Origin: a virus
Strand: one strand, 5' to 3'
IMG/VR virus record: IMGVR_UViG_3300030012_002914
Location: 1-29,210 of that record
Length of the DNA stretch: 29,210 bases
In this document: positions 1 through 28,229 of the stretch, in pieces
Layout of the letters: every line of letters begins with the position of its first letter
How positions within the stretch are numbered: the first letter of the stretch is position 1
Translations under genes and position numbers: made by a program
The notes under the pieces: generated by a model
What the model was told of the DNA's origin: nothing
Databases searched by the model: none
The model's input: the letters and a program-made list of their open reading frames with translations, nothing else

Positions 1-1308
1 CCTGATAATATAAAAAATAACTGGAGAGTTACAAAAACTTGTTTACGTTTAGGTAGTAGAGTTGTTGGTAAGTGTATGATGGGTAGTACAAGTAATGCGT
101 TAGATAAAGGAGGTGATAATTTTAAAAACTTGTACAATGATTCAGATGTTACCAAGCGCAACAGAAATGGACAAACTAAGTCGGGATTATATTCTTTGTT
201 TATTCCTATGGAATGGAATTATGAAGGATTCATTGATGAATTCGGACGACCTGTGTTCACTAATCCTGAACAACAAACATTTGATCCACAAGGACTAGAA
301 ATAGATTATGGTGTTATAAACCATTGGGAAAATGAAGCTGATGGTTTACGTGATGACCAAGATGCTTTAAATGAATTTTATCGTCAGTTTCCAAGAACTG
401 AAGAACATGCATTTAGAGATGAGACTAAAAATAGTATATTTAACTTAATTAAAATATACGAACAAATAGATTACAACGAAGGAAATAGACAAGATACATC
501 ATTAAGTATTGGTAACTTTCAATGGACAAATGGTGTAAAAGATACAAGAGTTGTTTTTAATCCAGATCCTAACGGTAGATTTAAAATAAGTTGGTTCCCT
601 GATAATAACATGCAAAACAACGTTATATTAAAAAATGGTATTAAATACCCAGGTAACGAACATGTTGGAGCTTTTGGTTGTGACTCATATGATATATCAG
701 GCACTGTTGATGGTACTGGATCAAAAGGCGCACTGCATGGTTTGACTAAGTTTTCAATGGAAAACGCACCATCAAATAGTTTCTTTTTAGAATATATAGC
801 AAGACCTCAAACAGCTGATATGTTTTTTGAAGACGTGTTGATGGCGTTAGTATTCTACGGTATGCCACTGCTTGCAGAAAATAATAAACCAAGATTACTA
901 TATTATTTAAGAAGAAGAGGTTATAGAGGTTTTAGTATGAATAGACCTGATAAAATATTTAATAAGTTGTCAACAACTGAAAAAGAAATAGGTGGAGTAC
1001 CAAACTCAAGCGAAGATATAAAGCAAGCTCATGCAGCCGCAATTGAAATGTATATCAACGATCATGTAGGTATGTTAGAAGATAATACTTACGGTAATAT
1101 GTATTTTAACGAAACATTAAATGATTGGTCTAAGTTTGATATAAATAGAAGAACAAGGCATGATGCATCTATAAGTTCTGGTTTAGCTATAATGGCTTGC
1201 AACAGACATATGTATAGACCAAATCCTAGCAAAGAAAAAACCTCTTTAAACCTAAATATAGCAAAGTATAATAATAAAGGATTATCATCTAGAATTATAA
1301 ATAAATAA
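1..1308 (+). CDS. terL: Terminase large subunit, C-terminal part (5' truncated by window edge)
   Basis: This is the motor and nuclease that packages DNA into the prohead; what is present is the end of the ATPase domain and the nuclease domain. The frame is open from base 1 without a stop, and residues read before the first ATG (NNWRVTKTCLRLGSRVVGKC) run straight into MMGSTSNALDKGG, a terminase-type motif around the ATPase/nuclease junction. The ATG at 76 is therefore internal, not the real start. Nuclease-domain acidic residues are visible as D228 of this fragment (AFGCDSYD, the usual first RNase H-like aspartate) and D388 (RRTRHDASISSGLAI, the usual last aspartate), with NKPRLLYYLRRRGYRGF between them. 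The portal gene follows after 2 bases, the usual terminase-portal order. Family assignment is confident; the catalytic residue assignment is by pattern only. Confidence 0.9.
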   Translation, partial: PDNIKNNWRVTKTCLRLGSRVVGKCMMGSTSNALDKGGDNFKNLYNDSDVTKRNRNGQTKSGLYSLFIPMEWNYEGFIDEFGRPVFTNPEQQTFDPQGLEIDYGVINHWENEADGLRDDQDALNEFYRQFPRTEEHAFRDETKNSIFNLIKIYEQIDYNEGNRQDTSLSIGNFQWTNGVKDTRVVFNPDPNGRFKISWFPDNNMQNNVILKNGIKYPGNEHVGAFGCDSYDISGTVDGTGSKGALHGLTKFSMENAPSNSFFLEYIARPQTADMFFEDVLMALVFYGMPLLAENNKPRLLYYLRRRGYRGFSMNRPDKIFNKLSTTEKEIGGVPNSSEDIKQAHAAAIEMYINDHVGMLEDNTYGNMYFNETLNDWSKFDINRRTRHDASISSGLAIMACNRHMYRPNPSKEKTSLNLNIAKYNNKGLSSRIINK

Positions 1309-1310
1309 AT

Positions 1311-3689
1311 ATGATGTACGCTCACATAAACTTTCCGTCTCAAGCGGTTAGTGATTCAGAAAAAGTTAGTCAAGATTACGGTTTAAAAGTTGCTCAAGCT
1401 ATAAGATATGAGTGGTTCAATGGACACAACTCAAAGTTTGAACATACTTTGAATACTTTTCATAAATTAAGATTATATGCTAGAGGCGAGCAATCTGTTC
1501 AAAAATATAAAAACGAATTATCTATAAATGGTGATTTATCTTATTTAAACTTAGACTGGACACCAGTACCTATAATACCTAAGTTTGTAGATATAGTTGT
1601 AAATGGTATGGCTCAAAGATCTTATGAAGTAAATTGTTTTGCTCAAGATGAATATGGTGTTAGTAGAAGAACTGAATACATGCAGTCTGTTCTTAGAGAC
1701 ATGAGAAGTAAAGAGTTTAATGACATGGTTGCAGAACAATTTGGTATGAACGTTTATGAAAATAAAAAAGAAACACTACCAGATACTGAAGAAGAATTAG
1801 CTTTACATATGCAACTTAGTTATAAACAAGCTGTTGAGTTAGCTGAAGAACAAGCTATAAACGTGTTGTTAGAAAATAGTGATTACGATTTAATTAGAAG
1901 AAGATGTTTATATGATTTAACAACACTAGGTATAAGTGCTACAAAAACTACATTTGATTTTAGTGATGGAGCTAGAGTTAAGTATGTAGATCCAGCTCAT
2001 TTAGTATATTCACATACTGAAAATCCTTACTTTGATGATTTATATTATGTTGGTGAAGTAAAGGAGCTACCAATAAATGAGTTAGTAAAAGAGTTTCCAG
2101 AATTAACAGAAGCTGAAATAAAAGAAATAACAGACAAAGGACAAGATCCACTTAGAAGGTCAGCTCATAGAGATAAAAATAAAATACACGTTTTATATTT
2201 TAACTATAAATCACATACAAACGATGTTTATAAATTAAAGAAAACAAAAGCTGGTGGAGAAAAATTAATACAAAAAGATGATACATTTAATCCGCCAGAA
2301 GGTTTAGAAGGTGACTTTAGCAAGTTAGAAAGAGTTGTTGAAGCTTTGTTTGAAGGTGTTTATATATTAGGTTCTAATAAGTTATTAAGATGGAGGATGG
2401 TTCCAAACATGATGAGATCAGACTCTGACTTTAATAGAGTTAAAATGAACTACCAAATAGTTGCACCGCGTATGTATGAAGGTAGAATAGAAAGTTTAGT
2501 TAGTAGAATAACTGGTTTTGCAGACATGATACAACTAACACATTTAAAGCTACAACAAGTTATGTCTCGTATGGTACCTGATGGTGTTTACTTAGATGCA
2601 GATGGTTTAGCAGAGATTGATCTTGGTAATGGAACAAACTATAATCCACAAGAAGCTTTGAATATGTTCTTTCAAACTGGTAGTGTTATAGGTAGAAGTT
2701 TCACATCAGATGGCGATATGAATCCTGGTAAAGTGCCAATACAGCAAATAAGCAATAATGTTAGTGGAGGTAAACTACAAGCTTTGATACAAACATACAA
2801 CTATTATTTACAAATGATACGCGATGTAACTGGTTTAAATGAAGCTCGTGATGGTAGCATGCCAGATGCTAATGCTTTAGTTGGTGTACAAAAATTAGCA
2901 GCAGCTAATTCAAATACAGCAACAAGACATATATTACAGTCTATGCTATACTTAACAGCCGAAGCTGCAGAGTGTTTATCACTTAGAATATCAGATATAA
3001 TAGAGTACTCACCAACACGTGACGCTTTTATAAGAGCTATTGGAGCTCATAACGTAGCTACTTTATCAGAAATGGCAGATTTACATTTATATGATTTTGG
3101 TATATTTATAGAGTTAATGCCTGATGAAGAAGAAAAACAATTATTAGAAAATAATATACAACAAGCTTTAGCTCAAAAATTAATAGACTTAGATGATGCT
3201 ATAGATATAAGAGATACTAAAAATGTAAAACTTGGTAATCAATTATTAAAAATTAAAAGAAGAAAAAAGCAAGAGCGTGATCAAATAATACAACAACAGA
3301 ACATACAAGCTCAAGCTCAAGCTAATACTCAAGCATCGCAAGAAGCTACTAAAATGAAAATAGAAGAAGCTCAAGTTAATTACGATAATGAAGTTAATTT
3401 AGAAAAGACTAGAAACTCTTTAAAAACAAGGTATTTAGAACAAGAAGCTAGAGTTAAAAAAGAGCTAATGATGTTAGAGTTTGAATTAAATAACAGAATA
3501 AAAAAGCAAGAAAGAGACAACTTAAATAAAGTAAACTCTATGAAAGAAAACAGAAAGGATGCTAGAGTTAATATGCAAGCTAGAAATCAAGAAAGACAAA
3601 TAGAGCAAAGAAACAGGGGTAAATCTTTTAAAAGCTTTGAGTCATCAGGTAATGATATAATTACAGGAGACGTAGGCTTAGATATATAA
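1311..3689 (+). CDS. Portal protein
   Basis: This 792-residue protein is the likely dodecameric portal at the capsid vertex through which DNA is packaged and ejected. Support comes from its place between terminase and scaffold, its size, and portal-like segments (VPIIPKFVDIVVNGMAQRSY near residue 90; DVTGLNEARDGSMPDANALV near residue 510). The last roughly 145 residues are Gln/Glu/Lys/Arg-rich (IIQQQNIQAQAQANTQASQ then long charged helices), as in a coiled coil or extended barrel/crown helix. The start is the first of two adjacent ATGs, 2 bases after the terminase stop, with A at -3; the second ATG (1314) is equally possible. No frameshift or missing segment is apparent. A portal identity is an inference from order, size and recalled similarity to marine phage portals, but I consider it likely. 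Confidence 0.85.
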   Translation: MMYAHINFPSQAVSDSEKVSQDYGLKVAQAIRYEWFNGHNSKFEHTLNTFHKLRLYARGEQSVQKYKNELSINGDLSYLNLDWTPVPIIPKFVDIVVNGMAQRSYEVNCFAQDEYGVSRRTEYMQSVLRDMRSKEFNDMVAEQFGMNVYENKKETLPDTEEELALHMQLSYKQAVELAEEQAINVLLENSDYDLIRRRCLYDLTTLGISATKTTFDFSDGARVKYVDPAHLVYSHTENPYFDDLYYVGEVKELPINELVKEFPELTEAEIKEITDKGQDPLRRSAHRDKNKIHVLYFNYKSHTNDVYKLKKTKAGGEKLIQKDDTFNPPEGLEGDFSKLERVVEALFEGVYILGSNKLLRWRMVPNMMRSDSDFNRVKMNYQIVAPRMYEGRIESLVSRITGFADMIQLTHLKLQQVMSRMVPDGVYLDADGLAEIDLGNGTNYNPQEALNMFFQTGSVIGRSFTSDGDMNPGKVPIQQISNNVSGGKLQALIQTYNYYLQMIRDVTGLNEARDGSMPDANALVGVQKLAAANSNTATRHILQSMLYLTAEAAECLSLRISDIIEYSPTRDAFIRAIGAHNVATLSEMADLHLYDFGIFIELMPDEEEKQLLENNIQQALAQKLIDLDDAIDIRDTKNVKLGNQLLKIKRRKKQERDQIIQQQNIQAQAQANTQASQEATKMKIEEAQVNYDNEVNLEKTRNSLKTRYLEQEARVKKELMMLEFELNNRIKKQERDNLNKVNSMKENRKDARVNMQARNQERQIEQRNRGKSFKSFESSGNDIITGDVGLDI

Positions 3690-3723
3690 ACTCCTAATAT
3701 TTAATATTTTATAAAATTTTATT

Positions 3724-4884
3724 ATGGCAGAAGAAACAAAAAAAGTCGAAGAGACTAATGTAGTCGAAGAGACTAAAAAAGATAATGTAACAAAGGTTAA
3801 AATACAAAAACCTAAAGACAATATAACAAGAGTTAATATAGACAAACCTCCTGTTAAAGAAGAAAAGGAAGAAGTTAAACAAGAAGAAGAAATTGTTGTT
3901 GTTAACGAAGAACCTAAACAAGAAGAGGTTAAAGAAACACCAGAAGAAGTACAACCTATTGTTGAAGAAGTAACTGATGAACAGGTACAAGAAGTAGAAC
4001 AAGAAGTTGAGCAAGCTATTGTAGAAGCTGAGCAAACTGGAAAACCTTTACCTGAGAAAATAGAAAAGCTAATAAGCTTTATGGAAGAAACTGGTGGTGA
4101 TTTAGTTGATTATGTAAATTTAAATAGAGACATAAAAAACATGGATGATGCCGATGTTTTAGATGAATACTATAGAACTACTAAACCTCACTTAACACCA
4201 GAAGAAAGAAACTTTATATTAGAAGAAAGATTTAACTACGATACAGAAGTTGATGATGAAAAAGATATAAAGAAAAAGAAAATAGCCCTTAAAGAGCAAG
4301 TTGCCGAGGCTAGAGCCTATTTAGACGGGCAAAAGTCTAAGTATTATGAAAATATTAAAGCTGGAAGCAAACTCACTAGTGAGCAGCAGAAAGCTATTGA
4401 TTTTTTTAATAGATACAATAAAGATTCTGAAAAACAAAAGAAGTTAACTGAAAAAAGCAAAAGAACATTTTTAAATAAAACTAAAACTCTTTTCAACGAA
4501 AATTTCAAAGGTTTTGATTATAAAGTTGGAGATAAAAAATTTAGATTTAACGTTAAAGATGTTGATAAAGTAAGGGAAACTCAAAGTGATATTAATAACT
4601 TTATCAATAAATTTGTTGATGAAGATAATGTTACTATAAGTGACGCTGCTGGTTATCATAAATCTTTATACACTGCTATGAACGCTGATAATATTGCAAA
4701 GCATTTTTATGAGCAAGGAAGAGCAGATGCTATAAAAGAAAAAATTGCTAAAGATAAAAACATTGATTTAAGTCCAAGAACAACACATGGTGAAACTAAT
4801 GTTGGTGGTATTAAATACAAAGTTTTAGGTCAGTCAGCTTCTGATATAAAAAACAGATCTTTTAAAATTAGAAAACAAAAATAA
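3724..4884 (+). CDS. Probable capsid scaffolding protein
   Basis: This 386-residue protein lies between portal and major capsid protein, the position of the scaffold in podoviruses (T7 gp8-gp9-gp10 order). Scaffolds are internal assembly factors absent from the mature head and are typically acidic and helical. That matches an extremely Glu/Lys/Val-rich N-terminus (residues 1-110, with VEET repeats), then a predicted helical charged middle (KDIKKKKIALKEQVAEARAYLDG, shown here as two overlapping helices near residues 180-205). The C-terminal part (SDAAGYHKSLYTAMNADNIAKHFYEQGRADAI) is less biased and may be the capsid-binding end. The 34-base upstream gap is almost pure A/T and ends ATT-ATG. No catalytic motif of a prohead protease is seen. 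Alternative: a head-associated structural protein. Confidence 0.7.
   Translation: MAEETKKVEETNVVEETKKDNVTKVKIQKPKDNITRVNIDKPPVKEEKEEVKQEEEIVVVNEEPKQEEVKETPEEVQPIVEEVTDEQVQEVEQEVEQAIVEAEQTGKPLPEKIEKLISFMEETGGDLVDYVNLNRDIKNMDDADVLDEYYRTTKPHLTPEERNFILEERFNYDTEVDDEKDIKKKKIALKEQVAEARAYLDGQKSKYYENIKAGSKLTSEQQKAIDFFNRYNKDSEKQKKLTEKSKRTFLNKTKTLFNENFKGFDYKVGDKKFRFNVKDVDKVRETQSDINNFINKFVDEDNVTISDAAGYHKSLYTAMNADNIAKHFYEQGRADAIKEKIAKDKNIDLSPRTTHGETNVGGIKYKVLGQSASDIKNRSFKIRKQK
3745..3776 (+). repeat. Short direct repeat in scaffold N-terminus
   Basis: GTCGAAGAGACTAA occurs at 3745-3758 and again at 3763-3776, an 18-base period equal to six codons (VEETNV / VEETKK). It uses the rare (for this genome) codon GTC twice, so the second copy looks like a recent tandem duplication inside the acidic low-complexity N-terminus. 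Confidence 0.85.
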
Positions 4885-4908
4885 TTAATAATTTAAAAAG
4901 AATATATT

Positions 4909-6444
4909 ATGGCAATTACTGCAGGAAATAGTTTGAATAGTGTACCTGCTCCACAGCAGCAAACACTAGCTACAAATTATTTAGATTTTACGGGCACAAA
5001 TGATGTAACTTGGGCTCAACAATACCTGCCTGACTTAATGGAGCAAGAAGCAGAAGTTTTCGGTCCACGAACAATTTCTGGTTTCTTATCTCAAGTTGGT
5101 GCGGAAGAGTCTATGACTTCAGATCAAGTTGTTTGGTCAGAACAAGGTAGACTACATTTATCATACAAAGGTAGAGTTTCAAACAACAACGGTGGTACAG
5201 CTGTTGGTGGTACTGCTGCTGCACAAATATTAATTGAGTTTGATATTGATGAAGCAGAAGGTAATACTTCTGGTATATCTAATGGTTTAACTGTTAGAAA
5301 CCACGGTATAAGAGTTAATGATACTGTTATTATAGCAAATAGTACTGATGGTGTTGTAAAAGCTTTAGTTACTAGAGCTGATGACTTAAGTACTATTGAA
5401 GTTGTTCCTTATGGAAACGCAAATCCAGCGGCGGTACTTACTGATAGTGCTGTTAGCAAATCTTCAACTATATTAGTTTATGGTTCTGAATTTGGAAAAG
5501 GTGTTAGCTATAACAACACAGCTGGAAACGCTTCAGCTGATTCAAGAACTGCTAATGAACCAGCGTTTAAAACTTTTACTAATAAACCAATTATAATGAA
5601 AGATTACTACGAAGTATCAGGATCTGATGTTTCTAGAATCGGTTGGGTAGAAGTTTCAAATGAAATGGGTGAGTCTGGTTACTTATGGTATTTAAAAGCA
5701 GAAGCAGATACAAGAGCTCGATTTGTTGACTACGTTGAAATGTCAATGTTAGAAGCTGTTGAAGGAGATTCTGATTTAACTGACTCTTTCTTAACAGGTA
5801 CTACTACTTTTGCTACAGGTACACAAGGTTTATTTGACGCTATCACAAAACGTGGTAACGTTACTTCTGGTGTTACAGGTGTTAACCCAGCTACTGATTT
5901 AGCTGAGTTTGATGCTATACTAGCTGAGTTTGACAAGCAAGGTGCTATTGAAGAATACATGATGTTTGTTAATCGTGCAACTAGTTTAGCTATTGATGAT
6001 ATGCTAGCATCTCTTAATTCTTACGGAGCTGGAGGTACTTCATTTGGAGTATTTGACAACGACGAAGATATGGCGTTAAATTTAGGTTTTTCAGGTTTCC
6101 GAAGAGGTTCTTACGACTTCTACAAGTCTGACTTTAGATACTTAAATGATAAAGCTACAAGAGGTGGTATTAATGATGCTGCTGGCTCTAACGCTATTAG
6201 AGGTGTATTTATACCAGCTGGTATGTCTTCTGTTTATGATCAAGTTGTAGGTTCTAACATTAAGAGACCTTTCTTACATGTTAGATTTAGAGCTTCTCAA
6301 ACTGATGATCGAAGAATGAAGTCTTGGGTTACTGGTTCTGTTGGAGCTGCAACATCACCACTTGATGCAATGCAGATTCACTTTTTAACTGAAAGATGTT
6401 TAGTTACACAAGGTGCTAACAACTTTATGTTAATGCAAGGGTAA
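4909..6444 (+). CDS. Major capsid protein
   Basis: This 511-residue protein is the probable major head subunit (HK97-like fold inferred, not shown). It follows the scaffold gene and has the typical N-terminal arm pattern (YLPDLMEQEAEVFGPRTISG). A threonine/glycine/valine-rich insert at about residues 105-195 (ending VYGSEFGKG) looks like an added beta-barrel/insertion domain. The C-terminal half contains MMFVNRATSLAIDDML and FLTERCLVTQGANNFMLMQG, as expected of a capsid core ending in a beta strand. The gene uses visibly more TTC/TAC/AAC codons than its neighbours, fitting very high expression, and a strong intrinsic terminator follows 10 bases after the stop. The start ends ATT-ATG. It resembles, from memory, capsid proteins of uncultured marine phages. 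Confidence 0.85.
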   Translation: MAITAGNSLNSVPAPQQQTLATNYLDFTGTNDVTWAQQYLPDLMEQEAEVFGPRTISGFLSQVGAEESMTSDQVVWSEQGRLHLSYKGRVSNNNGGTAVGGTAAAQILIEFDIDEAEGNTSGISNGLTVRNHGIRVNDTVIIANSTDGVVKALVTRADDLSTIEVVPYGNANPAAVLTDSAVSKSSTILVYGSEFGKGVSYNNTAGNASADSRTANEPAFKTFTNKPIIMKDYYEVSGSDVSRIGWVEVSNEMGESGYLWYLKAEADTRARFVDYVEMSMLEAVEGDSDLTDSFLTGTTTFATGTQGLFDAITKRGNVTSGVTGVNPATDLAEFDAILAEFDKQGAIEEYMMFVNRATSLAIDDMLASLNSYGAGGTSFGVFDNDEDMALNLGFSGFRRGSYDFYKSDFRYLNDKATRGGINDAAGSNAIRGVFIPAGMSSVYDQVVGSNIKRPFLHVRFRASQTDDRRMKSWVTGSVGAATSPLDAMQIHFLTERCLVTQGANNFMLMQG

Positions 6445-18179: not shown

Positions 18180-18824
18180 ATGGCATATAAACAGAGATCT
18201 CCAAATAAATTTATAGGCAAAGCGTTACGTAGGGCTAGAAAAGGTGTCATGGGTGGTGCTACTAAGATACTTGGTGGTGGATTACTTGGTGGTGCACTTT
18301 CTAATGTAGGTAGAAGCGTTGCAAATGTAGTTCCAGGATTAGGTTCTGGACAAAATCCACTTTCTGTTTTAGGTGGTGGTGTAGGTATGCTTGCTGGTAG
18401 ACCATTTATGAAAAGAAAAAGAACTGGTTATAAACCATATGAAGCTCCTAGTCCGATGAAAACAGATGTTATGTTAGTTAGAGGTGCGTACGATGCTGCT
18501 TCAGGTAAAGGCGCTAGAAAATACGGACAAATAGCTAAAGCAAGAGCTTTTGCTGATATGGTTGATAGTGTTGAAAGAACAACTAATAGATCATCTAGAG
18601 TTCAACTTATGAAAGCTAGAAGAAGAAGTAAAAGAACTGTTAGGTCTAATGATAGATTTGCTAATTGGAGAGAAAGATACGAAAGAAGACAGCAAAGAAA
18701 AGAAAGATTTAAAGATAGATTTAGAGGTAAAAAAAGAAAAGCTATAGATTTTGATAGATATAAAGATCAACTTTCTCAACAACCAACAGGTCAAAGATTT
18801 ACCAATACTGGTATAGGTTATTAA
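18180..18824 (+). CDS. Basic, glycine-rich probable internal virion protein
   Basis: This 214-residue protein has two distinct halves. Residues about 24-78 are glycine-rich and hydrophobic (GGATKILGGGLLGGALSNVG; LSVLGGGVGMLAGRPF), resembling membrane-interacting or amphipathic segments of ejected proteins. Residues about 138-190 are extremely basic (KARRRSKRTVRSND; RYERRQQRKERFKDRFRGKK), suggesting DNA binding inside the head. It opens the ejection module, 20 bases after a promoter-like motif, and is followed at 10 bases by a gp14-like gene, so I infer a protein packed with the genome and released with it. No family is recognised, and nothing excludes a role in condensing DNA or in nozzle closure. 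Confidence 0.5.
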   Translation: MAYKQRSPNKFIGKALRRARKGVMGGATKILGGGLLGGALSNVGRSVANVVPGLGSGQNPLSVLGGGVGMLAGRPFMKRKRTGYKPYEAPSPMKTDVMLVRGAYDAASGKGARKYGQIAKARAFADMVDSVERTTNRSSRVQLMKARRRSKRTVRSNDRFANWRERYERRQQRKERFKDRFRGKKRKAIDFDRYKDQLSQQPTGQRFTNTGIGY

Positions 18825-18834
18825 AATTATAATT

Positions 18835-19572
18835 ATGTCTTTATTTTTAGGTTTAGGTTTATCTATTGCTGGAAGTGCTCTTGGTGCAATAAGTGCTAAT
18901 AAAGCTCAAAAAAAAGCTGAGCGTAGAGCTAAAAAAGCTAAACAAGAGTTAAATAGTATAAAAGATAAGTACTCACAACTAGATACTACAAATCCGTTTA
19001 CTGACATGGAAAACACCATGAAAGATTTGACAATAAATCAAAGACAATTTGAGCTACAAAGTCAACAATATGCTCAAAGTCAGTCAAATATATTAAGCGG
19101 TATAAAAGAAGCTGCTGGTAGCTCTGGTATAGCTGCAGTAGCAGACGCTTTATCTGGCGAAGCTAAAAGAGCTGTTAATCAAGCTACTTCATCTATAGGT
19201 TTTCAAGAACGTGAAAATCAAGTAAAAGAAAGAAGTATGGCTAGGAATTTACAAAATTTAGAAGCTGAAGGTGAGCTATGGTCTAGAAAAGCTGAAACAG
19301 ACAAAGTAGGTACACTATTAGGTATGTCACAGCAAGAAGTTGCAGCATATAGAGAACAAGCTGCAGCAGCTAAACAAGCTAAATTTGATGCTATATCAGA
19401 TGGCTTAAGTTCTATAGGTAATATGTTAGTACAACCTCCTGGTCCACCTGGTCCTGGTGCTATATCACAAGGTTCGGAACCTGGAAATGAAAGACCACCT
19501 GGTAAATATATTTTAGGTGTTAAAGTTGGTGAAGCAGATTATCCTACACCATGTAACGGATTAGTTGGATAA
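18835..19572 (+). CDS. Internal virion protein, T7 gp14-like (collagen-like tail segment)
   Basis: The 245-residue protein begins with a hydrophobic small-residue segment (SLFLGLGLSIAGSALGAISA), directly followed by a Lys/Ala/Gln helical coiled coil (NKAQKKAERRAKKAKQELNS). This is the layout of T7 gp14-type ejection proteins, which insert into the outer membrane. The middle (about residues 60-185) is all-helical and Gln/Ala-rich. Near residues 201-208 there is PPGPPGPG, a short collagen-like run, then a Gly/Pro-rich C-terminus ending CNGLVG with the only cysteine at the end. It is co-directional with its neighbours, 11 bases before the next gene. Orthology to gp14 is by architecture and gene order only; the collagen-like piece is not usual in gp14. 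Confidence 0.55.
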   Translation: MSLFLGLGLSIAGSALGAISANKAQKKAERRAKKAKQELNSIKDKYSQLDTTNPFTDMENTMKDLTINQRQFELQSQQYAQSQSNILSGIKEAAGSSGIAAVADALSGEAKRAVNQATSSIGFQERENQVKERSMARNLQNLEAEGELWSRKAETDKVGTLLGMSQQEVAAYREQAAAAKQAKFDAISDGLSSIGNMLVQPPGPPGPGAISQGSEPGNERPPGKYILGVKVGEADYPTPCNGLVG

Positions 19573-19583
19573 AAAATTTAATT

Positions 19584-20642
19584 ATGATAAATAAGTACGA
19601 TAAAATTGACAGATCTGATAAAGAGCTATCGGCGTTTGATAGGAAAACGCGTATGGATAAGCATGTTGAAAAAATATTAGATACATCAGGTGAGTTACCA
19701 GCTGAAGAATATAGTAATATATACAAATCTTTACTTCAAAAAAGATTAGAATTTATAGATGGTAATGAAGAGCAAAGAGCTAATATAAAAAGACAGTTAA
19801 ATCAAACTAAGGAAGCTATTGTTTCTTATAGAACATTTAGACAAGATTTAGCCGCTGCTTATAAAACAAATTCATTAATGAATACATGGACCGATGGTGA
19901 ACAAGGTCAGTCTGTTATGAGTCTTTTAGATGATGTTCCTAGATTAGTACAAAAAAAATATCCTGAAGGTTTAAATGGACCAGATAATAATGAAATAGGT
20001 GTTATTATGCCAGATTACAAATCAGTGTATGACGCTATGAAAAGAGTTGCAGAATTAAACTCTAAAAAATCTGAACTAACTAAAAATCCTGAAAGCGAAA
20101 AACAGTATAATGAAGCTATGTCATCATTAAAAACTATAGTTGATAATCAAGCTATGAGATGGGTTGGTATATCTAACTTAAAGAAAATGATAATGCTAAA
20201 AGATGAAGAGAGTAAAGAAGTTTTGAATAAAATGGGTAATAATTATCTAAGATCTTCTTCTAATCAAAACGAAGTTGAAGACATGCCTTTTAACGAACTT
20301 GCTGCTAGAAGACAAGTTGAAGGTACATTAATAGCAAAAGCTTCAAATTTACAGTCATTAGCATATGATGAAATGATACCAGGTAGAACTTTTTTTAAAG
20401 ATGTTAAAGAAAAGATAAAAATGACTACACCATTTAAAACCGATGAACAAGCTGATAGAGTTGCAAAGCTTATGATAAATGATCCAGTTTATAATGAACA
20501 GTTTAAAGCAGAGCTTACTGATTATTTTACTAGATTTTTAAAGAAGCAGCATGACATTGGCAAGTTAAATAGAAGAAAAGTAGTAAAAAAGAAAGATAAA
20601 AAATTTAGTGGTATAAAAAAATACAGACCAGGAACTTTATAA
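19584..20642 (+). CDS. Probable ejection-module virion protein, function unknown
   Basis: This 352-residue protein is predicted helical and highly charged, with no enzymatic motif that I recognise. Notable segments: YSNIYKSLLQKRLEFIDGNE (near residue 44), RWVGISNLKKMIMLKDEESK (near residue 192), and a very basic C-terminus (KLNRRKVVKKKDKKFSGIKK). By its place between a gp14-like gene and the giant last ejection gene, it occupies the slot of T7 gp15, though it is only about half as long as gp15. It is therefore most simply an internal core or ejected protein. Start ATT-ATG, 11 bases after the previous stop. I recall homologous hypothetical proteins in uncultured marine phages, without any known function. 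Confidence 0.5.
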   Translation: MINKYDKIDRSDKELSAFDRKTRMDKHVEKILDTSGELPAEEYSNIYKSLLQKRLEFIDGNEEQRANIKRQLNQTKEAIVSYRTFRQDLAAAYKTNSLMNTWTDGEQGQSVMSLLDDVPRLVQKKYPEGLNGPDNNEIGVIMPDYKSVYDAMKRVAELNSKKSELTKNPESEKQYNEAMSSLKTIVDNQAMRWVGISNLKKMIMLKDEESKEVLNKMGNNYLRSSSNQNEVEDMPFNELAARRQVEGTLIAKASNLQSLAYDEMIPGRTFFKDVKEKIKMTTPFKTDEQADRVAKLMINDPVYNEQFKAELTDYFTRFLKKQHDIGKLNRRKVVKKKDKKFSGIKKYRPGTL

Positions 20643-20666: not shown

Positions 20667-23600
20667 ATGAAAAGATATTTAATAGATGGTCAACCTATAG
20701 AGGTTGATCCAATACATGAGGAAGCTTTTGTAGAAGAAGCTAAAGCAAAAGGACTATCAGTTGATTTAGAAGAAACTGAAGAAGAAAAAGAAGAACAAGA
20801 AACTGAAAAAAAAGAAGAACAAGAAACTGACAAAAAAGAAGAGTCGGGAAACCAACAAGGCTCTACAGACAGTGCGACTGTGGAGCAAACTACTCAAGCA
20901 CAAACTCCAAGTATTCTAGGTACGGAATCCAGCTCGGAAGATATTTCATTGGAGCAACCGTCGTTCGAAATACAAAACTCAGCAAATAAAAATGAAAAAA
21001 TAAAAGTTAATAAATCGGAAATTAAAAAAAGATTTGGAAGTCCTAATTTTTTAAATCACGTAAAAGCCGGTAGAATTAATTTAGATTTATCTAGTGATAA
21101 AGATTTACAAGAGGAACTAAGTGAAAAAATGAAAACTTACAATGAAGCTACTGATGCTGAAGGTAATGTTGTTCCATTTCAATCTAATGAAGAAGGTAAA
21201 AGAAAATACTTTGACAGTAGAACTAATACGTATGAAGAAGAAGTTGATTACGATTATGATAGATCATATGGTATAAGATTTAAAAAAGATAGTCAAGGTA
21301 AGTTTCTTGATAGAATAAAATACAACTTAATAGAGCCTTTTATTGATACAACAATGCAGGCTATAGACTCTGGTCAAGATGGTGAATATACAAACGTTAT
21401 GTTAGACTTGTTTTTTGATGATGAACTTGATGAGGATGAAGCTAATAGAGTTATACAAGAAATGTTAGAAGCTGCTAATAAGCCGCCAGACGAAGACATG
21501 ATGAGATTTATGGAAATAGCTAATAATCCTGATGTTAGCGCTATAAGATCTTTTTTTGATGCTGTTACAGATGGTGGTGTAAAAACTGCTTACAAGGTTG
21601 CATTAAGTTCATTTGCTGGACAGGCAAAAGCTGTTTATGATTCTTTTAGTGAAGGTGGTGAAATAATAGGTCTTGCAGCTACTGGGGCTGCAGCTGGAGC
21701 TGCTACTGCTAGTTTTGGTGGTGGAATAACTATGATAGGTGGTGGTTTAAGAGGTGGTATGAGTGTTGTTGGTGGTGTTATAGAAGCTTCTGCAATACTA
21801 GGTGAATTAATAAGAGAAGAGTTTGGTGGTAGAGTTCCAAATAAAGAAGAATTAATAGACTTATTTAATGATAAAAATAAGTTTAATGAAATGCGTAAAA
21901 AATCTGCACTAAAAGGTGGTAGCATAATGCTAGTTGATTATATTGGTGGTACAGCTGTTGCTAAAGGTACTTTTGAAGTAGCTAGAAAAGGTGGTAAAGT
22001 TAATAAGATTTTAGCTGCTACTGGAGGTACAATAGCTGATGGTGGTGTTGGTGGTTTTGGTGAATATGTTAGTGGTGAAATAATAGATAGGCCAGCTACA
22101 AGAGGTGATGTTATGATGGAAATAATAGGTAGTTCTGGTACTGGTTTAGTAACTGATGTTACACCTTCTCTTATTGCTGCTGCAAGAACTAGATATACTA
22201 TAACAAAGCCGGGTGGTAGTAAAGAAAACATAACATTACAACAGTTATTAGGTATATTAGAGTCTTCTACGCCAGGTGAATTAGCTAGATTAGATATAGA
22301 AGTAGTTGGTGACAATGTAACTAAGCAAAGAGTTGAAAACGCTAAAAGAAGAGCTGATATAGAAGTAACAATACCTCCTGTTGTTATTGATAATATAGAA
22401 AGACAAGCATTAACTAGTTTAATAATAGATAAAAGAAGAGCTCAAATAAAGCAAGAAGAATCTCAAAACAAAGGAAACTTAGAAGACCCTACTTTAACTA
22501 ATGAAATAGAGCAAATAGACGATGCTATTGAAAGCATAATGTCTGAATATAAGAACATAGATAAAAGAACAAAGCCTGTTAGAGAACAGAAAAAAGATAG
22601 TCAAGAATATAAAAAATATAGATATCAAAGCGAATATGATTCAAGAGCTGAATTTTTAAAAGCTATAAGTGAAATATATAAAGTTAAAGTTGGTGATCCA
22701 AAAACAGATAAAGAGATAAAAGAAATTATATCTCAAAATCCAAGTATGCAAGGCAAAGGTCTTGAAGATGCTGCTGGTTTTTATGTTCCTGAGTTAAATG
22801 AAGTTTTTCTTAATTTAGATAAAATTGCATTTACAGGTAACTTTACTGTTGATACGCATGAAGCTTTACACGCTATACTTAAAAACGCTGTAGATATAGA
22901 TGGTAACTCTTTAATAACTCCGGATTTAATAGCTGACATGGAAAAAACTTTAGGTCCTGATAGTTGGAATGTTTTAAAGAAAAGAGCTGAAGAAATAAAT
23001 CCAAAAACAGGTGAAAGATATTATACAGATGATTATATGAAGCAAAATCCTGATGAGTGGTTTACTTTTTTATCTGATGCAATACAGAACAATCAAATAG
23101 TTTTTGATAAAACTATGGCAGATGGTATTAAAAATATACTAGAGTCTATAATAGGTAGTTACTTAACTTCAAGAATACCTGGTTTAAATAGAAAAGTAGG
23201 TTTTGCAACTGGAGAAGAAGCTGTTAATTTTGTAAGAACTTATGTTGAAAGTATTGATAAAGGCGCTTTAAATACATCAATAACAGATTTAATAAAAGAT
23301 AAAAAAACTAAAGCTACTGATATTAAAAAATCAGTGGTAAAACCTACAGAAGTAAACTTAGAAAAGTCAAGATCAGACTTAGATAAACATATAACTGATG
23401 ATATAAAAACTCAAGATGACTTTAAACAAAAGGGTGCTAGAGATAAAGTTTTTGAAGAAATATATTCAAACAATGTTTTAGATGGTGTTATACGTAATAG
23501 ATTAATAATAGATCCTAGATTTGGTGCGGTTGTTAGTGATGAAAGTAGAGTACAAAATTTAATTGACGATATAAAATTTAGGTTGTTAACTAAAATGGAT

Positions 23601-26600
23601 GCTCAATATAAGCCAGTTGTTGATGGTAATAAAAGAAGTATATTTAGTTATTTTTATGGTGACGCAAGTGGTAGACGTGGAGCTATTGGTTTTGTTATAG
23701 AAGATGTTGCTAAAGCCTATAAACAAACTGTTAGACCATCTGGTTCTTTAGAAGTACAAACAGATGAAGGTGTTAGAACTATAGATGTTGAAGATGAGTC
23801 TACTGGTTTAGAAGCTTTTGAAGAAGAAGAAGTATTAACAGATCAAGTTAAGCCAACAAAAGATATAGTTGTAGCTGATATATTAGGTTTGTCTGATGAA
23901 CAAAAGCGACTTATAACTAAAAACATACAAGAAGCTGATTTAGATATTACTAAGCTTAACTATAAAAATATAAAAGAACTATTATTAAAAGGACCACTTT
24001 TAGATATATTAGATATAGTTTCTAAAGAATTTGGTATAGAAACTAGAAGAATACAAATTAAACACGATTTAAACGGTAAACAAAGAAGCTCAGCAAGAGA
24101 TAAAATAATAGAAAAATCAAAAGAAATTAATTTATTTGATTTGTTACCTGAAGGTCAAGATCCTGATGGTAGAGCTACAGGTGTAGCTAATACTAAATTT
24201 GGTGAGTTTTATATAAAAGGTGGTAGAGTTAAAGTTAGTGAAGGTGCTACAAAAGGTTTAGGTCAAAAAGAATCTCAAAACAAAAGAAAAGACGTAAGTA
24301 ACGAAGAGTTTCTAACCGTATTTGGTATAAATGAAGATGGTACTATTGAATCTGGTAGAAAGTTTGATGGAGCATTGAGAGAATTTGTTGTTCAAATAGC
24401 TCAAATAATAGCTAATCAAGAAATAAGAAAAGACGCTTCAGAAAGAGGTACTGCTACTGAGTCTCAAATAGTTTCTATAGGTAGAGGTAAGTCTGAAATT
24501 GTACTATCTGCTGGTAGCTTTGATATTGTTAAAAAATACGGGCAAGAAAATACGTATTTTGAAATTAAAACAATGGATGACGCTAAAAGATACGTTGAAG
24601 AAGTTGTACCTTTATTAATACGAGTATTTGAACCACATGTTGGTTTGTTAAATCCAAACGAAGTAACACCTAGAAAAGGTTTGTCTAAGGAAATAAAAGA
24701 TTATTTAAAACAAGAGATACCTAAAAAATTTGAAGGAATTACAACTAAAGGTAATTTTCCTAAAAGACAGTTTTCTGATTATGTTGGTAAGAATAATAAT
24801 GAAATAATTAAAAATAAAAATAAAATATCAGATTATAACGCTCAAGCTAAAATAAATTTTGAAACACAATGGTTAGCTATTGACAAAGCTTTACAAGATG
24901 ATCCTACGCTATTAGGACCTATAATGATGTATCTTGATTTATCACAAAATTCAAGGACACATATTAATAGAGCTGGTGCTCAATATGGTGGTAGAGATAT
25001 AACTGCGCCAGGTAATATGACTTTAAAATTAGAACATGCGGTACAAAATGCTTATGCTTATAGATTCTTAATAGAGTCTTCTTTAATTGATAAATCTAGT
25101 GATAGAAGTGGCTTTAAATTTGATTTAAAACAATTACAAAAAAACTATAAACTAATAGCAATAAGACCTACTGATGATAGGAAGTTAGATTTATCTAGTT
25201 ATATTGATGAAAATGGTAATAAACAAAGCTATAAAGATGGCATGGGCCCTGGTTGGAATATATACACTGACAATTGGTGGCAAAGATATTTTAATGAAGA
25301 TGTTGTTAAAACAAACGGTGGTTTAAATCCAAATAATATAGTTGATGAAAATGGTGTTAGTCTTGCTGATAAGTTTAAAATAAATAGTAGTGGCGGTAGT
25401 ACTTTAGTTAAAAATTCTATTAACGATATTAATGCTGATAAAAATATAATAGAAGCTTTTAATAAACAAGCTGAGATAATTAAAAAAATAAATCAAGAGT
25501 TGCAAGCTGATTTGGAAAAGAGTGGTTATAAGTTTAGTAAAGGTATGTCTACTTTTGATTTTGATGAAACATTAATTATTGATGGTGAAAATTTTGTTAT
25601 CGCTACAGATCCTGTTACAGGAGAAACTCAACGAATAAAATCTGGTGATTGGCCTATTAAAGGTCCAGAACTTACTGAACAAGGTTTTACTTTTAACTTT
25701 AATGATTTTGTTAATGTTAGAGGCGGTGTTGAAGGTCCTTTATTAGATAAAATGAGAAACCAAATAAAAAAGTATGGACCAAATAATGTTTTTGTTTTAA
25801 CAGCTAGGCCGCAAACAGCTGATGTAGCTATACACGCTTGGTTAAGATCTAAGGGTATAAACATACCTTTTAAAAACATAACAGGACTGGGTGATAGTAG
25901 AGGTGATGCTAAGGCTGAGTGGATGCTTGAGAAGTTTGCTGAAGGTTATAATGATATGTATTTTGTTGATGACGCTTTACCAAATGTAGATGCTGTTAAA
26001 ACTGTATTGGATCAGTTAGATATAAAATCAAATATTGTTCAAGCTAAAATAAAAACTAGCAAAGGTTTGAGTGAAGATTTTAATAAAATGCTTGAAAGAA
26101 CTAAAGGCGTTGGAGCACACAAAGTCTTTTCAAAAGCTGAAGCTAAAAAAAGAGGTATTAACAAGGGTCGTTATGAATTTTTTGTACCGCCATCGGCAGA
26201 AGATTTTAAAGGTTTATTGTATAGATTTTTAGGTAAAGGTAAACAAGGTGAAAAAGATTTACAGTTTTTTAAAGATAAATTAATTAATCCTTATTCTGAA
26301 GGTATAAAAGCCTTTAATACGTATAAACAAGGTATGGCAGAGCAGTATGCTGCTATTAAAAAAGAATATAAAAATGTATCAAAAAACTTAAATCAAAACG
26401 TAGCTGGAACTAGCTTTACAAACGATGCTGCAATAAGAGTTTATTTATGGAATAAGGCTGGTTTTACTATACCTGGTATATCTAAAACCTTACAAAATAA
26501 ATTAGTTAAACATGTTAAGCAAAATCCTGAGATGATGGCTTTTGCAGACGCATTAAGTAAAATAGTTAAAACAGATGATGTATATGTAGAACCAACAGAA

Positions 26601-28229
26601 AGCTGGTATGCTCAAAGTATAGCTAGTGATTTAAAAGAAGTTACTCAATCTATAGGTTTACCACAATTTTTAAGTGAGTTTATTGAAAATAAAAATGAAA
26701 TATTTAATGAAGATAATTTAAATAAAATAGAAGCTACTTATGGTAATCCAACTAGAAATGCACTAGAAAATATATTGTTTCGTATGGAAAACAATACAAA
26801 TAGGACTACTAGTGCAGATGCTAATGTTAATCTTTGGTTAGACTGGATAAACGGTTCTGTAGGTGCGACAATGTTTGTTAATGTAAGATCTGCTGTACTA
26901 CAAACTTTATCATCTGTTAATTTTATAAATTGGTCTGATAATAATATATTTAACGCTGCTAAAGCTTTTGCTAATCAACCGCAATATTGGAAAGACTTTG
27001 CAATGATATTTAACTCTGACATGTTAAGACAAAGAAGAGCTGGTTTATCAATGGATGTAGCGTCTGCTGAATTAGCTAGGGTATTTGCTAATGGTGGTAA
27101 TACTATGTACCAAAAAACTCAAGCTGTTTTATCTTATTTGTTACAACTTGGTTTTACACCAACTCGTGTTGCTGATAGTTTTGCTATAGCTTCTGGTGGT
27201 GCTACATTTTATAGAAATAGAGTTAATGCTTATGTTAAGCAAGGTAAAAGCAAAGCTGATGCCGAGAAACAAGCGTTTTTAGACTTTCAAGAAATAGCAG
27301 AAGAAACTCAACAGTCATCAAGACCTGATATGATAGCACAACAACAAGCTGGTGTTTTAGGTAGACTTATATTAGCTTGGCAAAACACACCAATGCAATA
27401 TACTCGTTTAACTAAAAAAGCGTTAGATGATATTGTTAATAACAGAGGTGATAGAAAAACAAATGTATCTAAAGTTATATATTACGGTGCTGCACAAAAT
27501 ATATTATTTGGAGCTTTACAACAAGGTATAGCATTCACTATGTTTGGAGGTGGTATAGATGAAGAAGATATTCAAGATGCTGAAATAAGAGTTGCTAACG
27601 GAGCGTTAGATACTTTTCTTAGAGGTACGGGTATTTATGGTGCTGCTGCATCAACAATTAAAAATACTTTAATACAATGGCAAGCTATACAAGACAAGCC
27701 ATATGGTAGACAAGATTTTACAAAAATATCTCAAGCTGTTATTGATATATCACCACCTATTGGTAGTAAAGTTAGAAAAATTACACAAGCTTCTAAAACA
27801 GATTTGTTTAATAAAAATATATATCCTAAGTTAAAATATAGAATAGAAAATCCTAAACTATCTGTTTATGCTAATGTAATAGAAGCTACAACAAATGTTC
27901 CGCTAGCTAGATTAGTTAATAAAGCAAATAATATAGAAGAAGCTTTAGATTCTAATCATCAAATGTGGAAACGTATGGCTTTAATATCTGGTTGGAATAC
28001 TTGGAATTTAGGTATAGAAGATCAAGAAATAATAAAAGCTAGAGAAGAAGTTAGGCAAGATAAATTAGAACAAAAGAAAAAAGAAAAAGCGCAACAACAA
28101 ATAACAAAAGAAGCCATAAAAGAGTCTAAGAAAAAATCTAAAGTTAGATGTATTGCGTTAAAAAGAAATGCTGAAAGGTGTAAAAATATGACTGATAATA
28201 AAAACGGTAAATGTTATGCTCATCAGTAA
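20667..28229 (+). CDS. Giant multidomain ejection / polyvalent protein (HExxH peptidase-like, HAD phosphatase-like, Zn-knuckle tail)
   Basis: This 2520-residue protein sits in the slot of T7 gp16, so it is probably carried in the head and injected. In order: N-terminus MKRYLIDGQPIEVDPIHEEA; acidic repeats (38-60); Gly/Ala-rich hydrophobic stretch (about 335-385), possibly membrane- or channel-forming; HEALH (731-735) within VDTHEALHAIL, a zinc metallopeptidase motif, with a possible third ligand in NPDEWF (E797); an unassigned middle; a HAD fold with D1631/D1633 (TFDFDET), T1712 (VLTARP), K1749 and D1768/D1769 (YFVDDALPNVD); then a long helical region (about 1850-2400, including LQTLSSVNFINWSDNNIFNA), as in large phage polyvalent proteins. 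The end is C2495-x9-C2505-x10-C2516-x2-H2519. The domain set is read from motifs; activity and substrates are unknown. The 5' portion has atypical GC content. Confidence 0.78.
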   Translation: MKRYLIDGQPIEVDPIHEEAFVEEAKAKGLSVDLEETEEEKEEQETEKKEEQETDKKEESGNQQGSTDSATVEQTTQAQTPSILGTESSSEDISLEQPSFEIQNSANKNEKIKVNKSEIKKRFGSPNFLNHVKAGRINLDLSSDKDLQEELSEKMKTYNEATDAEGNVVPFQSNEEGKRKYFDSRTNTYEEEVDYDYDRSYGIRFKKDSQGKFLDRIKYNLIEPFIDTTMQAIDSGQDGEYTNVMLDLFFDDELDEDEANRVIQEMLEAANKPPDEDMMRFMEIANNPDVSAIRSFFDAVTDGGVKTAYKVALSSFAGQAKAVYDSFSEGGEIIGLAATGAAAGAATASFGGGITMIGGGLRGGMSVVGGVIEASAILGELIREEFGGRVPNKEELIDLFNDKNKFNEMRKKSALKGGSIMLVDYIGGTAVAKGTFEVARKGGKVNKILAATGGTIADGGVGGFGEYVSGEIIDRPATRGDVMMEIIGSSGTGLVTDVTPSLIAAARTRYTITKPGGSKENITLQQLLGILESSTPGELARLDIEVVGDNVTKQRVENAKRRADIEVTIPPVVIDNIERQALTSLIIDKRRAQIKQEESQNKGNLEDPTLTNEIEQIDDAIESIMSEYKNIDKRTKPVREQKKDSQEYKKYRYQSEYDSRAEFLKAISEIYKVKVGDPKTDKEIKEIISQNPSMQGKGLEDAAGFYVPELNEVFLNLDKIAFTGNFTVDTHEALHAILKNAVDIDGNSLITPDLIADMEKTLGPDSWNVLKKRAEEINPKTGERYYTDDYMKQNPDEWFTFLSDAIQNNQIVFDKTMADGIKNILESIIGSYLTSRIPGLNRKVGFATGEEAVNFVRTYVESIDKGALNTSITDLIKDKKTKATDIKKSVVKPTEVNLEKSRSDLDKHITDDIKTQDDFKQKGARDKVFEEIYSNNVLDGVIRNRLIIDPRFGAVVSDESRVQNLIDDIKFRLLTKMDAQYKPVVDGNKRSIFSYFYGDASGRRGAIGFVIEDVAKAYKQTVRPSGSLEVQTDEGVRTIDVEDESTGLEAFEEEEVLTDQVKPTKDIVVADILGLSDEQKRLITKNIQEADLDITKLNYKNIKELLLKGPLLDILDIVSKEFGIETRRIQIKHDLNGKQRSSARDKIIEKSKEINLFDLLPEGQDPDGRATGVANTKFGEFYIKGGRVKVSEGATKGLGQKESQNKRKDVSNEEFLTVFGINEDGTIESGRKFDGALREFVVQIAQIIANQEIRKDASERGTATESQIVSIGRGKSEIVLSAGSFDIVKKYGQENTYFEIKTMDDAKRYVEEVVPLLIRVFEPHVGLLNPNEVTPRKGLSKEIKDYLKQEIPKKFEGITTKGNFPKRQFSDYVGKNNNEIIKNKNKISDYNAQAKINFETQWLAIDKALQDDPTLLGPIMMYLDLSQNSRTHINRAGAQYGGRDITAPGNMTLKLEHAVQNAYAYRFLIESSLIDKSSDRSGFKFDLKQLQKNYKLIAIRPTDDRKLDLSSYIDENGNKQSYKDGMGPGWNIYTDNWWQRYFNEDVVKTNGGLNPNNIVDENGVSLADKFKINSSGGSTLVKNSINDINADKNIIEAFNKQAEIIKKINQELQADLEKSGYKFSKGMSTFDFDETLIIDGENFVIATDPVTGETQRIKSGDWPIKGPELTEQGFTFNFNDFVNVRGGVEGPLLDKMRNQIKKYGPNNVFVLTARPQTADVAIHAWLRSKGINIPFKNITGLGDSRGDAKAEWMLEKFAEGYNDMYFVDDALPNVDAVKTVLDQLDIKSNIVQAKIKTSKGLSEDFNKMLERTKGVGAHKVFSKAEAKKRGINKGRYEFFVPPSAEDFKGLLYRFLGKGKQGEKDLQFFKDKLINPYSEGIKAFNTYKQGMAEQYAAIKKEYKNVSKNLNQNVAGTSFTNDAAIRVYLWNKAGFTIPGISKTLQNKLVKHVKQNPEMMAFADALSKIVKTDDVYVEPTESWYAQSIASDLKEVTQSIGLPQFLSEFIENKNEIFNEDNLNKIEATYGNPTRNALENILFRMENNTNRTTSADANVNLWLDWINGSVGATMFVNVRSAVLQTLSSVNFINWSDNNIFNAAKAFANQPQYWKDFAMIFNSDMLRQRRAGLSMDVASAELARVFANGGNTMYQKTQAVLSYLLQLGFTPTRVADSFAIASGGATFYRNRVNAYVKQGKSKADAEKQAFLDFQEIAEETQQSSRPDMIAQQQAGVLGRLILAWQNTPMQYTRLTKKALDDIVNNRGDRKTNVSKVIYYGAAQNILFGALQQGIAFTMFGGGIDEEDIQDAEIRVANGALDTFLRGTGIYGAAASTIKNTLIQWQAIQDKPYGRQDFTKISQAVIDISPPIGSKVRKITQASKTDLFNKNIYPKLKYRIENPKLSVYANVIEATTNVPLARLVNKANNIEEALDSNHQMWKRMALISGWNTWNLGIEDQEIIKAREEVRQDKLEQKKKEKAQQQITKEAIKESKKKSKVRCIALKRNAERCKNMTDNKNGKCYAHQ
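20787..20830 (+). repeat. Tandem direct repeat in the acidic N-terminus of the giant protein
   Basis: The 20-mer AAAGAAGAACAAGAAACTGA occurs at 20787-20806 and again at 20811-20830, a 24-base (eight-codon) period encoding KEEQETEK / KEEQETDK. It sits immediately upstream of the GC-rich patch and is probably an unstable linker that varies in length between relatives. Confidence 0.85.
20860..20886 (+). other. Intragenic hairpin within a GC-rich island
   Basis: GCTCTACAG (20860-20868) can pair with CTGTGGAGC (20878-20886): nine pairs with one G-U wobble and a 9-base loop. A competing inner hairpin is ACAGT-GCG-ACTGT (20869-20881). It lies in a stretch (20841-20940) where I count 50 G/C of 100 bases. 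No T-tract follows, so it is not a terminator. It may be an RNA or DNA signal, or a chance result of the local composition. Confidence 0.5.

Follow-up and report, generated by a model that had tools for sequence, protein, structure and literature searches.

What would a giant protein with both a peptidase-like and a phosphatase-like motif set do if it entered a bacterial cell together with a viral genome? The question is raised by P0001, the 2520-aa product of a gene in the virus record IMGVR_UViG_3300030012_002914 (the window, i.e., the whole stretch of 29,210 nucleotides analyzed here; Table 1), which a sequence-only reading had placed among injected virion proteins. We predict, with a probability of about 0.42, that P0001 is a virion-delivered polyvalent protein in which a zincin frees the modules and a HAD phosphatase heals nucleic-acid ends. 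According to this proposal, a podovirus of Bacteroidota type would carry P0001 inside its virion and eject it along with the DNA, and the zincin would cut P0001 itself, or a host protein, and thereby free modules. The HAD, for its part, would dephosphorylate nucleic-acid ends and thus provide one half of an end-healing enzyme; the kinase half would be the P-loop kinase that is nested in the HAD cap in ~40% of the relatives. Breaks made by host nucleases during entry could in this way become ligatable ahead of phage gene expression. The kinase-less P0001 of the window would supply the phosphatase only. Our confidence falls along this chain, from the HAD being an active phosphomonoesterase, through entry with the genome and cleavage by the zincin, to the action of the HAD on ends.

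Whole-protein Pfam and PHROGs scans of P0001 yielded no informative match, including no RNA polymerase domain, and its domains had to be resolved from fragments and alignments. Searched with the full-length protein, viral contigs yielded 212 matching stretches, from which 79 loci were kept. The HAD alignment confirmed 245 stretches and the HAD-kinase alignment 182, and a larger profile-search census of the HAD comprised about 160 copies; most of these relatives lie on incomplete metagenomic contigs. The catalytic residues of the HAD are where the sequence-only reading had put them (D1631 at 25557, D1633 at 25563, T1712 at 25800, K1749 at 25911 and D1768/D1769 at 25968/25971) and form an intact set, with motifs I (DxD), II (T/S), III (K) and IV (DD) in order, a pattern that appeared in none of 5000 composition-matched shuffles. 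T1712, R1714, K1749, D1768 and D1769 are 100% conserved in 80 relatives, motif I (DxD[E/D/G]T) is present in 160/161 census copies and motifs II and III are found in all of them. An apparent loss of motif I in 22 relatives proved to be an alignment artefact of the kinase insert. Separately, in the giant ORF (open reading frame) starting at 3878 of locus L248, which is left uncounted in the census, the motif IV stretch is apparently lost by a small deletion, natural or due to assembly error. Named HAD models match weakly, the best among the relatives being DUF2608 (4.7e-6) and HAD-SF-IA-v3 (3.8e-5), with the HAD of the window falling below the cut-offs, and a sequence-profile search of the PDB with the HAD alignment gave only chance-level matches. 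Hence, we assign this domain by its residues, place it in no nameable subfamily and consider it very probably active.

The HEALH motif reported at residues 731-735 is likewise present there, within a region that we identify as a zincin-like domain. In the zincin alignment A3 (n = 60), whose sequences are mostly only 10-30% identical to the window protein, the sole invariant positions are H731, E732, H735 and E797. By its sequence, this combination of HExxH with a distant glutamate is a gluzincin signature, and since E797 is invariant together with the three motif residues, it is likely to be the third zinc ligand, which the sequence-only reading had overlooked. In the AlphaFold2 model, a helix is followed by three short strands, then by the HExxH helix and, further on, by a helix that begins at E797, which is the layout described for the metallopeptidases of polyvalent proteins, with their helix, three-stranded sheet, HExxH helix and later glutamate-bearing helix (PMC5512222). 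The matches of the model in a viral structure library include polyvalent, MuF, N4-like virion RNA polymerase and phi14:2 structural proteins, with only the first match, an unnamed viral protein, having an E-value below 0.001; a sequence-profile search of the PDB with the zincin alignment again gave chance-level matches only. Exactly one HExxH lies N-terminal to the HAD in 130/131 complete homologous ORFs. As a separate observation, a giant protein of Podoviridae sp. ctfjg026 from Manatee Spring (L090:741-12320) displays two HEFGH motifs separated by ~890 residues, and no HAD was detected in it.

Could the HExxH have arisen by chance, or the HAD and kinase be catalytically dead scaffolds? Shuffles matched for composition (14 His among 2520 aa) contain a single HExxH in ~0.7% of cases, and both the low identity among the zincins and the non-significant PDB fold matches would be compatible with this. 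Such an explanation has to contend with the HExxH and the distant glutamate being the only invariants in 60 divergent copies, with invariant catalytic residues in the HAD and with purifying selection on both domains: against the nearest relative (92% identical), the ratio of nonsynonymous to synonymous substitution rates (dN/dS) is 0.30 for the zincin, 0.10 for the HAD and 0.06 for the C-terminal region. These ratios indicate that no domain of P0001 is decaying, and we view chance or dead scaffolds as very improbable and largely refuted by this conservation. The zincin belongs to a known kind and is unremarkable within it: zincins are present in ~36% of polyvalent proteins, of which the metallopeptidase is the hub domain. 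Self-processing is the role that the survey of these proteins favors for the zincin (PMC5512222), and the P0001 zincin most likely trims its own polypeptide. The unusual part of P0001 is the HAD.

In 61 of 160 relatives, HAD motifs I and II are separated by an inserted P-loop kinase of ~200 residues, which has a Walker A motif and whose matches to AAA_33 (1.5e-12 at best) and Zeta_toxin (5.7e-11 at best) both pass the cut-offs. Motif I differs with the presence of the insert: it reads DFDET in 98/99 kinase-less HADs and DFDDT, DLDDT, DFDGT or DLDGT in 61/61 kinase-bearing ones, and thus appears to travel with the cap, as if the two were exchanged together. A tree of 155 HAD copies needs at least seven changes of state between kinase-bearing and kinase-less; some of its rows are long-branched, and intragenic recombination can make this number too high. 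No AAA_33 kinase match was found elsewhere in 15 viral records with a kinase-less HAD. The closest standalone relatives of the kinase belong to Pelagibacter phage HTVC008M (gp129; L085:2453-3115) and Methylophilales phage Melnitz (118; L086:2477-3145), with profile E-values of ~1e-32. The Melnitz gene lies directly after tail and baseplate genes and before an NT5C-type HAD gene. A kinase of the same type is found in gp053 of Agrobacterium phage Atu_ph07 (L087:1721-4057), the N-terminal part of which looks ADP-ribosyltransferase-like by eye.

We examined the predicted structure of one kinase-bearing relative (L036), which has the same HAD motifs as P0001. The composite model has a mean predicted local distance difference test (pLDDT) score of 79.7, with the HAD part being of moderate confidence. 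Its best PDB matches are the Pnkp1 subunit of the bacterial RNA repair complex and T4 polynucleotide kinase/phosphatase (Pnkp), at E ~2e-7 with both domains aligned, the match to T4 Pnkp across the two domains being at moderate confidence. The kinase alone matches Clostridium thermocellum polynucleotide kinase with a template-modelling (TM) score of 0.73-0.76 of the target, while a different placement of the domains keeps the overall TM score against T4 Pnkp low. A profile-profile comparison of the HAD-kinase composite with T4-type Pnkp extends through both domains at 95% (E 3e-8). Moreover, T1712, R1714, K1749, D1768 and D1769 align with S211, R213, K258, D277 and D278 of T4 Pnkp, and the spacing from the lysine to the DD is 19 in both. 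Taken together, the nesting of the kinase in the same HAD in relatives, the matches to Pnkp, the equivalent residues and the shared spacing lead us to favor a nucleic-acid end-healing role. That the HAD works like a Pnkp is our leading, unproven, reading of its substrate, and we do not call P0001 a member of that family.

Several observations weigh against this end-healing prediction. The HAD of the window by itself has only a weak profile match to T4 Pnkp (15%), and neither HAD_PNKP (PF25109) nor PNK3P (PF08645) is among the matches of alignments A1/A2, while T4 Pnkp matches PF25109 at 2.8e-59. The kinase is about equally close to zeta toxins and AAA_33 kinases, and it is missing in 99 of 160 relatives, P0001 of the window included; a kinase and a HAD in one polypeptide, as in Pnkp, are thus found in the other 61 and not in P0001. 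The top PDB matches of the zincin model, collagenase H and lethal factor, are both zincins, neither of them significant. As to a ligase that might act downstream, RNA ligase PF09511 gave no match, but with the PF09511 control being silent too, this does not demonstrate the absence of a T4-type RNA ligase partner. DNA ligases, for their part, are widespread among phages and do not have to be partners of such an enzyme. A ligase-family gene (PF09414) is nevertheless present in 12/17 relative contigs of at least 60 kb, including that of the nearest relative of the window, which suggests that a ligase able to seal healed ends is at hand in these. The two examined are DNA ligases.

The same evidence admits a different substrate. 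A virion-delivered HAD, together with the nested Zeta-like kinase in relatives, could act on small molecules, such as nucleotides, nucleotide second messengers or cell-wall sugar precursors, and thereby disarm signaling defenses, feed nucleotide pools or weaken the wall. The Zeta_toxin matches to the kinase, the presence of the zeta structure 1gvn among the structural matches of L036, the weak family matches of the HAD to unrelated phosphatase groups and the zeta-like kinases fused to MuF domains in the polyvalent-protein survey (PMC5512222) all fit this proposal. On the other side, it is polynucleotide kinase/phosphatases that the composite matches best, by structure as well as by profile and across both domains, and the HAD is unchanged in the copies without a kinase. 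Kinase and phosphatase in one unit are, furthermore, the known logic of end healing. We hence regard action on small molecules as somewhat unlikely.

Delivery in the virion is predicted from the position of the gene and by analogy with crAss001, phi14:2 and N4. The genes for the terminase, portal, capsid and muzzle-like proteins all run in the same direction as P0001, which belongs to this structural block as its final large gene, in agreement with the gp16-like position claimed for it. The equivalent place holds a 3757-aa "structural protein" in the elemo phages and a 1829-aa protein in Panino, and mass spectrometry has placed the giant late-block proteins of phi14:2 and crAss001 in the virion. 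The portal is closest to those of Maribacter phage Panino, the Flavobacterium elemo phages, and Cellulophaga and Tenacibaculum phages, which bears out the podovirus core of Bacteroidota-phage type proposed from the sequence and makes a Bacteroidota host likely. Signals of Crassvirales are mixed: the 2002-aa protein encoded at 9082-15090 has a crAss muzzle C-terminal domain (PF25729, 9e-7), yet the nearest portals are from Panino and elemo records, neither of which is placed in Crassvirales, and the fragment is without replication genes.

The late position could also speak for P0001 working mainly in the producing cell, with the zincin maturing virion proteins, as has been proposed for zincins in some jumbo phages (PMC7824862), the HAD being regulatory or structural and neither being relevant after injection. 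However, the giant proteins at this place in related and analogous phages are delivered into the host as ejected cargo, and a strictly conserved phosphatase with an interchangeable kinase has no obvious role in assembly. Thus, we deem a function confined to the producing cell quite unlikely, and continue to prefer a virion-delivered end-healing protein.

Across the complete homologous ORFs (1546-4518 aa, median 3062), the N-terminal part is variable, and the conserved core comprises the HAD and everything C-terminal to it. Residues 1801-2450 are the most constrained part of P0001 and have no informative Pfam match and no PDB match, a sequence-profile search of the PDB with the C-terminal alignment giving hits at chance level only. 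The "zinc knuckle" of the sequence-only reading corresponds to a C-x9-C-x10-C-x2-H module. Among 20 relatives, 90% or more retain it, and in 3 of them it resembles DUF5763 (best 3.2e-6). The order of peptidase, HAD and zinc knuckle, which that reading had singled out, is indeed present, but is the rule across the relatives of P0001 rather than singular. Two relatives are found in contigs binned with a Sphingobacteriales and a Maricaulis metagenome-assembled genome (MAG), the latter probably being a misbin; in the homolog from the Sphingobacteriales MAG (L083:5336-12832), the C-terminal CCCH-like module is doubled. Residues 333-382 possibly constitute a membrane-interacting part, as judged from their composition and hydropathy. 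PHROGs matches were weak or absent for the two of the three small upstream ORFs that were searched.

Table 1. Features of the window and of P0001 (nucleotide positions in the window).
Feature	Position	Strand	Basis
Terminase large subunit (cut at window start), portal, putative scaffold, major capsid	1..6444	+	PHROGs matches
Three small ORFs (214, 245, 352 aa), candidate internal/ejection proteins	18180..20642	+	Directly upstream of P0001; role predicted from position
Giant polyvalent protein P0001, 2520 aa	20667..28229	+	Open reading frame; homologs in >200 viral contig stretches
Gly/Ala-rich hydrophobic segments, residues 333-382	21663..21812	+	Hydropathy peaks at 333 and 364, mean 1.4-1.5 over 19 residues
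Zincin-like (gluzincin) domain, residues ~670-840	22674..23186	+	A3 invariants; AlphaFold2 core pLDDT mostly 93-98
HEALH motif, residues 731-735	22857..22871	+	Sole HExxH in P0001
E797, probable third zinc ligand	23055..23057	+	Invariant 60/60
HAD phosphatase domain, residues 1624-1800, short-cap form without nested kinase	25536..26066	+	D1631, D1633, T1712, R1714, K1749, D1768, D1769; dN/dS 0.10
Strongly conserved C-terminal region, residues 1801-2450	26067..28016	+	45-59% identity to 18 diverse relatives; dN/dS 0.06
C-terminal CCCH module C2495-C2505-C2516-H2519	28149..28226	+	Near-invariant in alignment A5

Enzymes delivered in the virion act at the time when host nucleases have the readiest access to the incoming DNA, and here a phosphatase, in many relatives with a nested kinase, is part of the giant protein of a large podovirus family known mostly from metagenomes. 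Should it heal DNA or RNA ends, it would afford genome repair or counter-defense independent of transcription, and since copies with the kinase and copies lacking it occur naturally side by side in the family, this idea can be tested directly. A stronger proposal is that the family represents a new end-healing architecture, in which a kinase nested in a HAD cap is gained and lost as a cassette within a virion-delivered giant and repairs phage or host ends before expression; we consider this unlikely as a whole. Among open-licence papers, we found neither a kinase in a HAD cap nor a HAD in an ejected virion protein.

Among known systems, the closest in overall organization are the polyvalent proteins of phages and conjugative elements (Iyer et al. 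2017, PMC5512222), which, like P0001, are giant, multidomain, encoded in the late region and centered on a zincin hub. The several unrelated enzymatic domains that define large polyvalent proteins are found in the P0001 family as the zincin, the HAD, the CCCH module and, in relatives, the kinase. In contrast, the main text of that survey mentions no phosphatase and no HAD, whereas in the P0001 family the HAD is near-universal and can hold a kinase. Product gp72 (YP_010109159.1) of the cultured Flavobacterium phage elemo, annotated as a structural protein, occupies the same place after a similar capsid block and has a homologous zincin, which the A3 profile detects at E ~1e-8 to 1e-10; it differs in having no detected HAD or kinase, in carrying DUF3293 and in the rest not being alignable to P0001. 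No cultured relative bearing the HAD turned up in the phage collection. The N4 virion RNA polymerase (gp50) and the crAss-like virion RNA polymerases are comparable as giant ejected virion proteins, and the C1 domain of the ejected gp50 has a conserved HExxH (PMC12633501), with the sequence match between that region and the P0001 zincin not being significant. The HTVC008M gp129 and Melnitz kinases, unlike the nested kinase, are free-standing proteins of 220-222 aa that are unfused to a HAD. Finally, T4 Pnkp and Pnkp1 likewise unite a P-loop kinase and a HAD phosphatase with equivalent catalytic residues in one polypeptide, as do the kinase-bearing relatives of P0001; in the former the two domains stand in tandem, whereas in the latter the kinase is nested between HAD motifs I and II.

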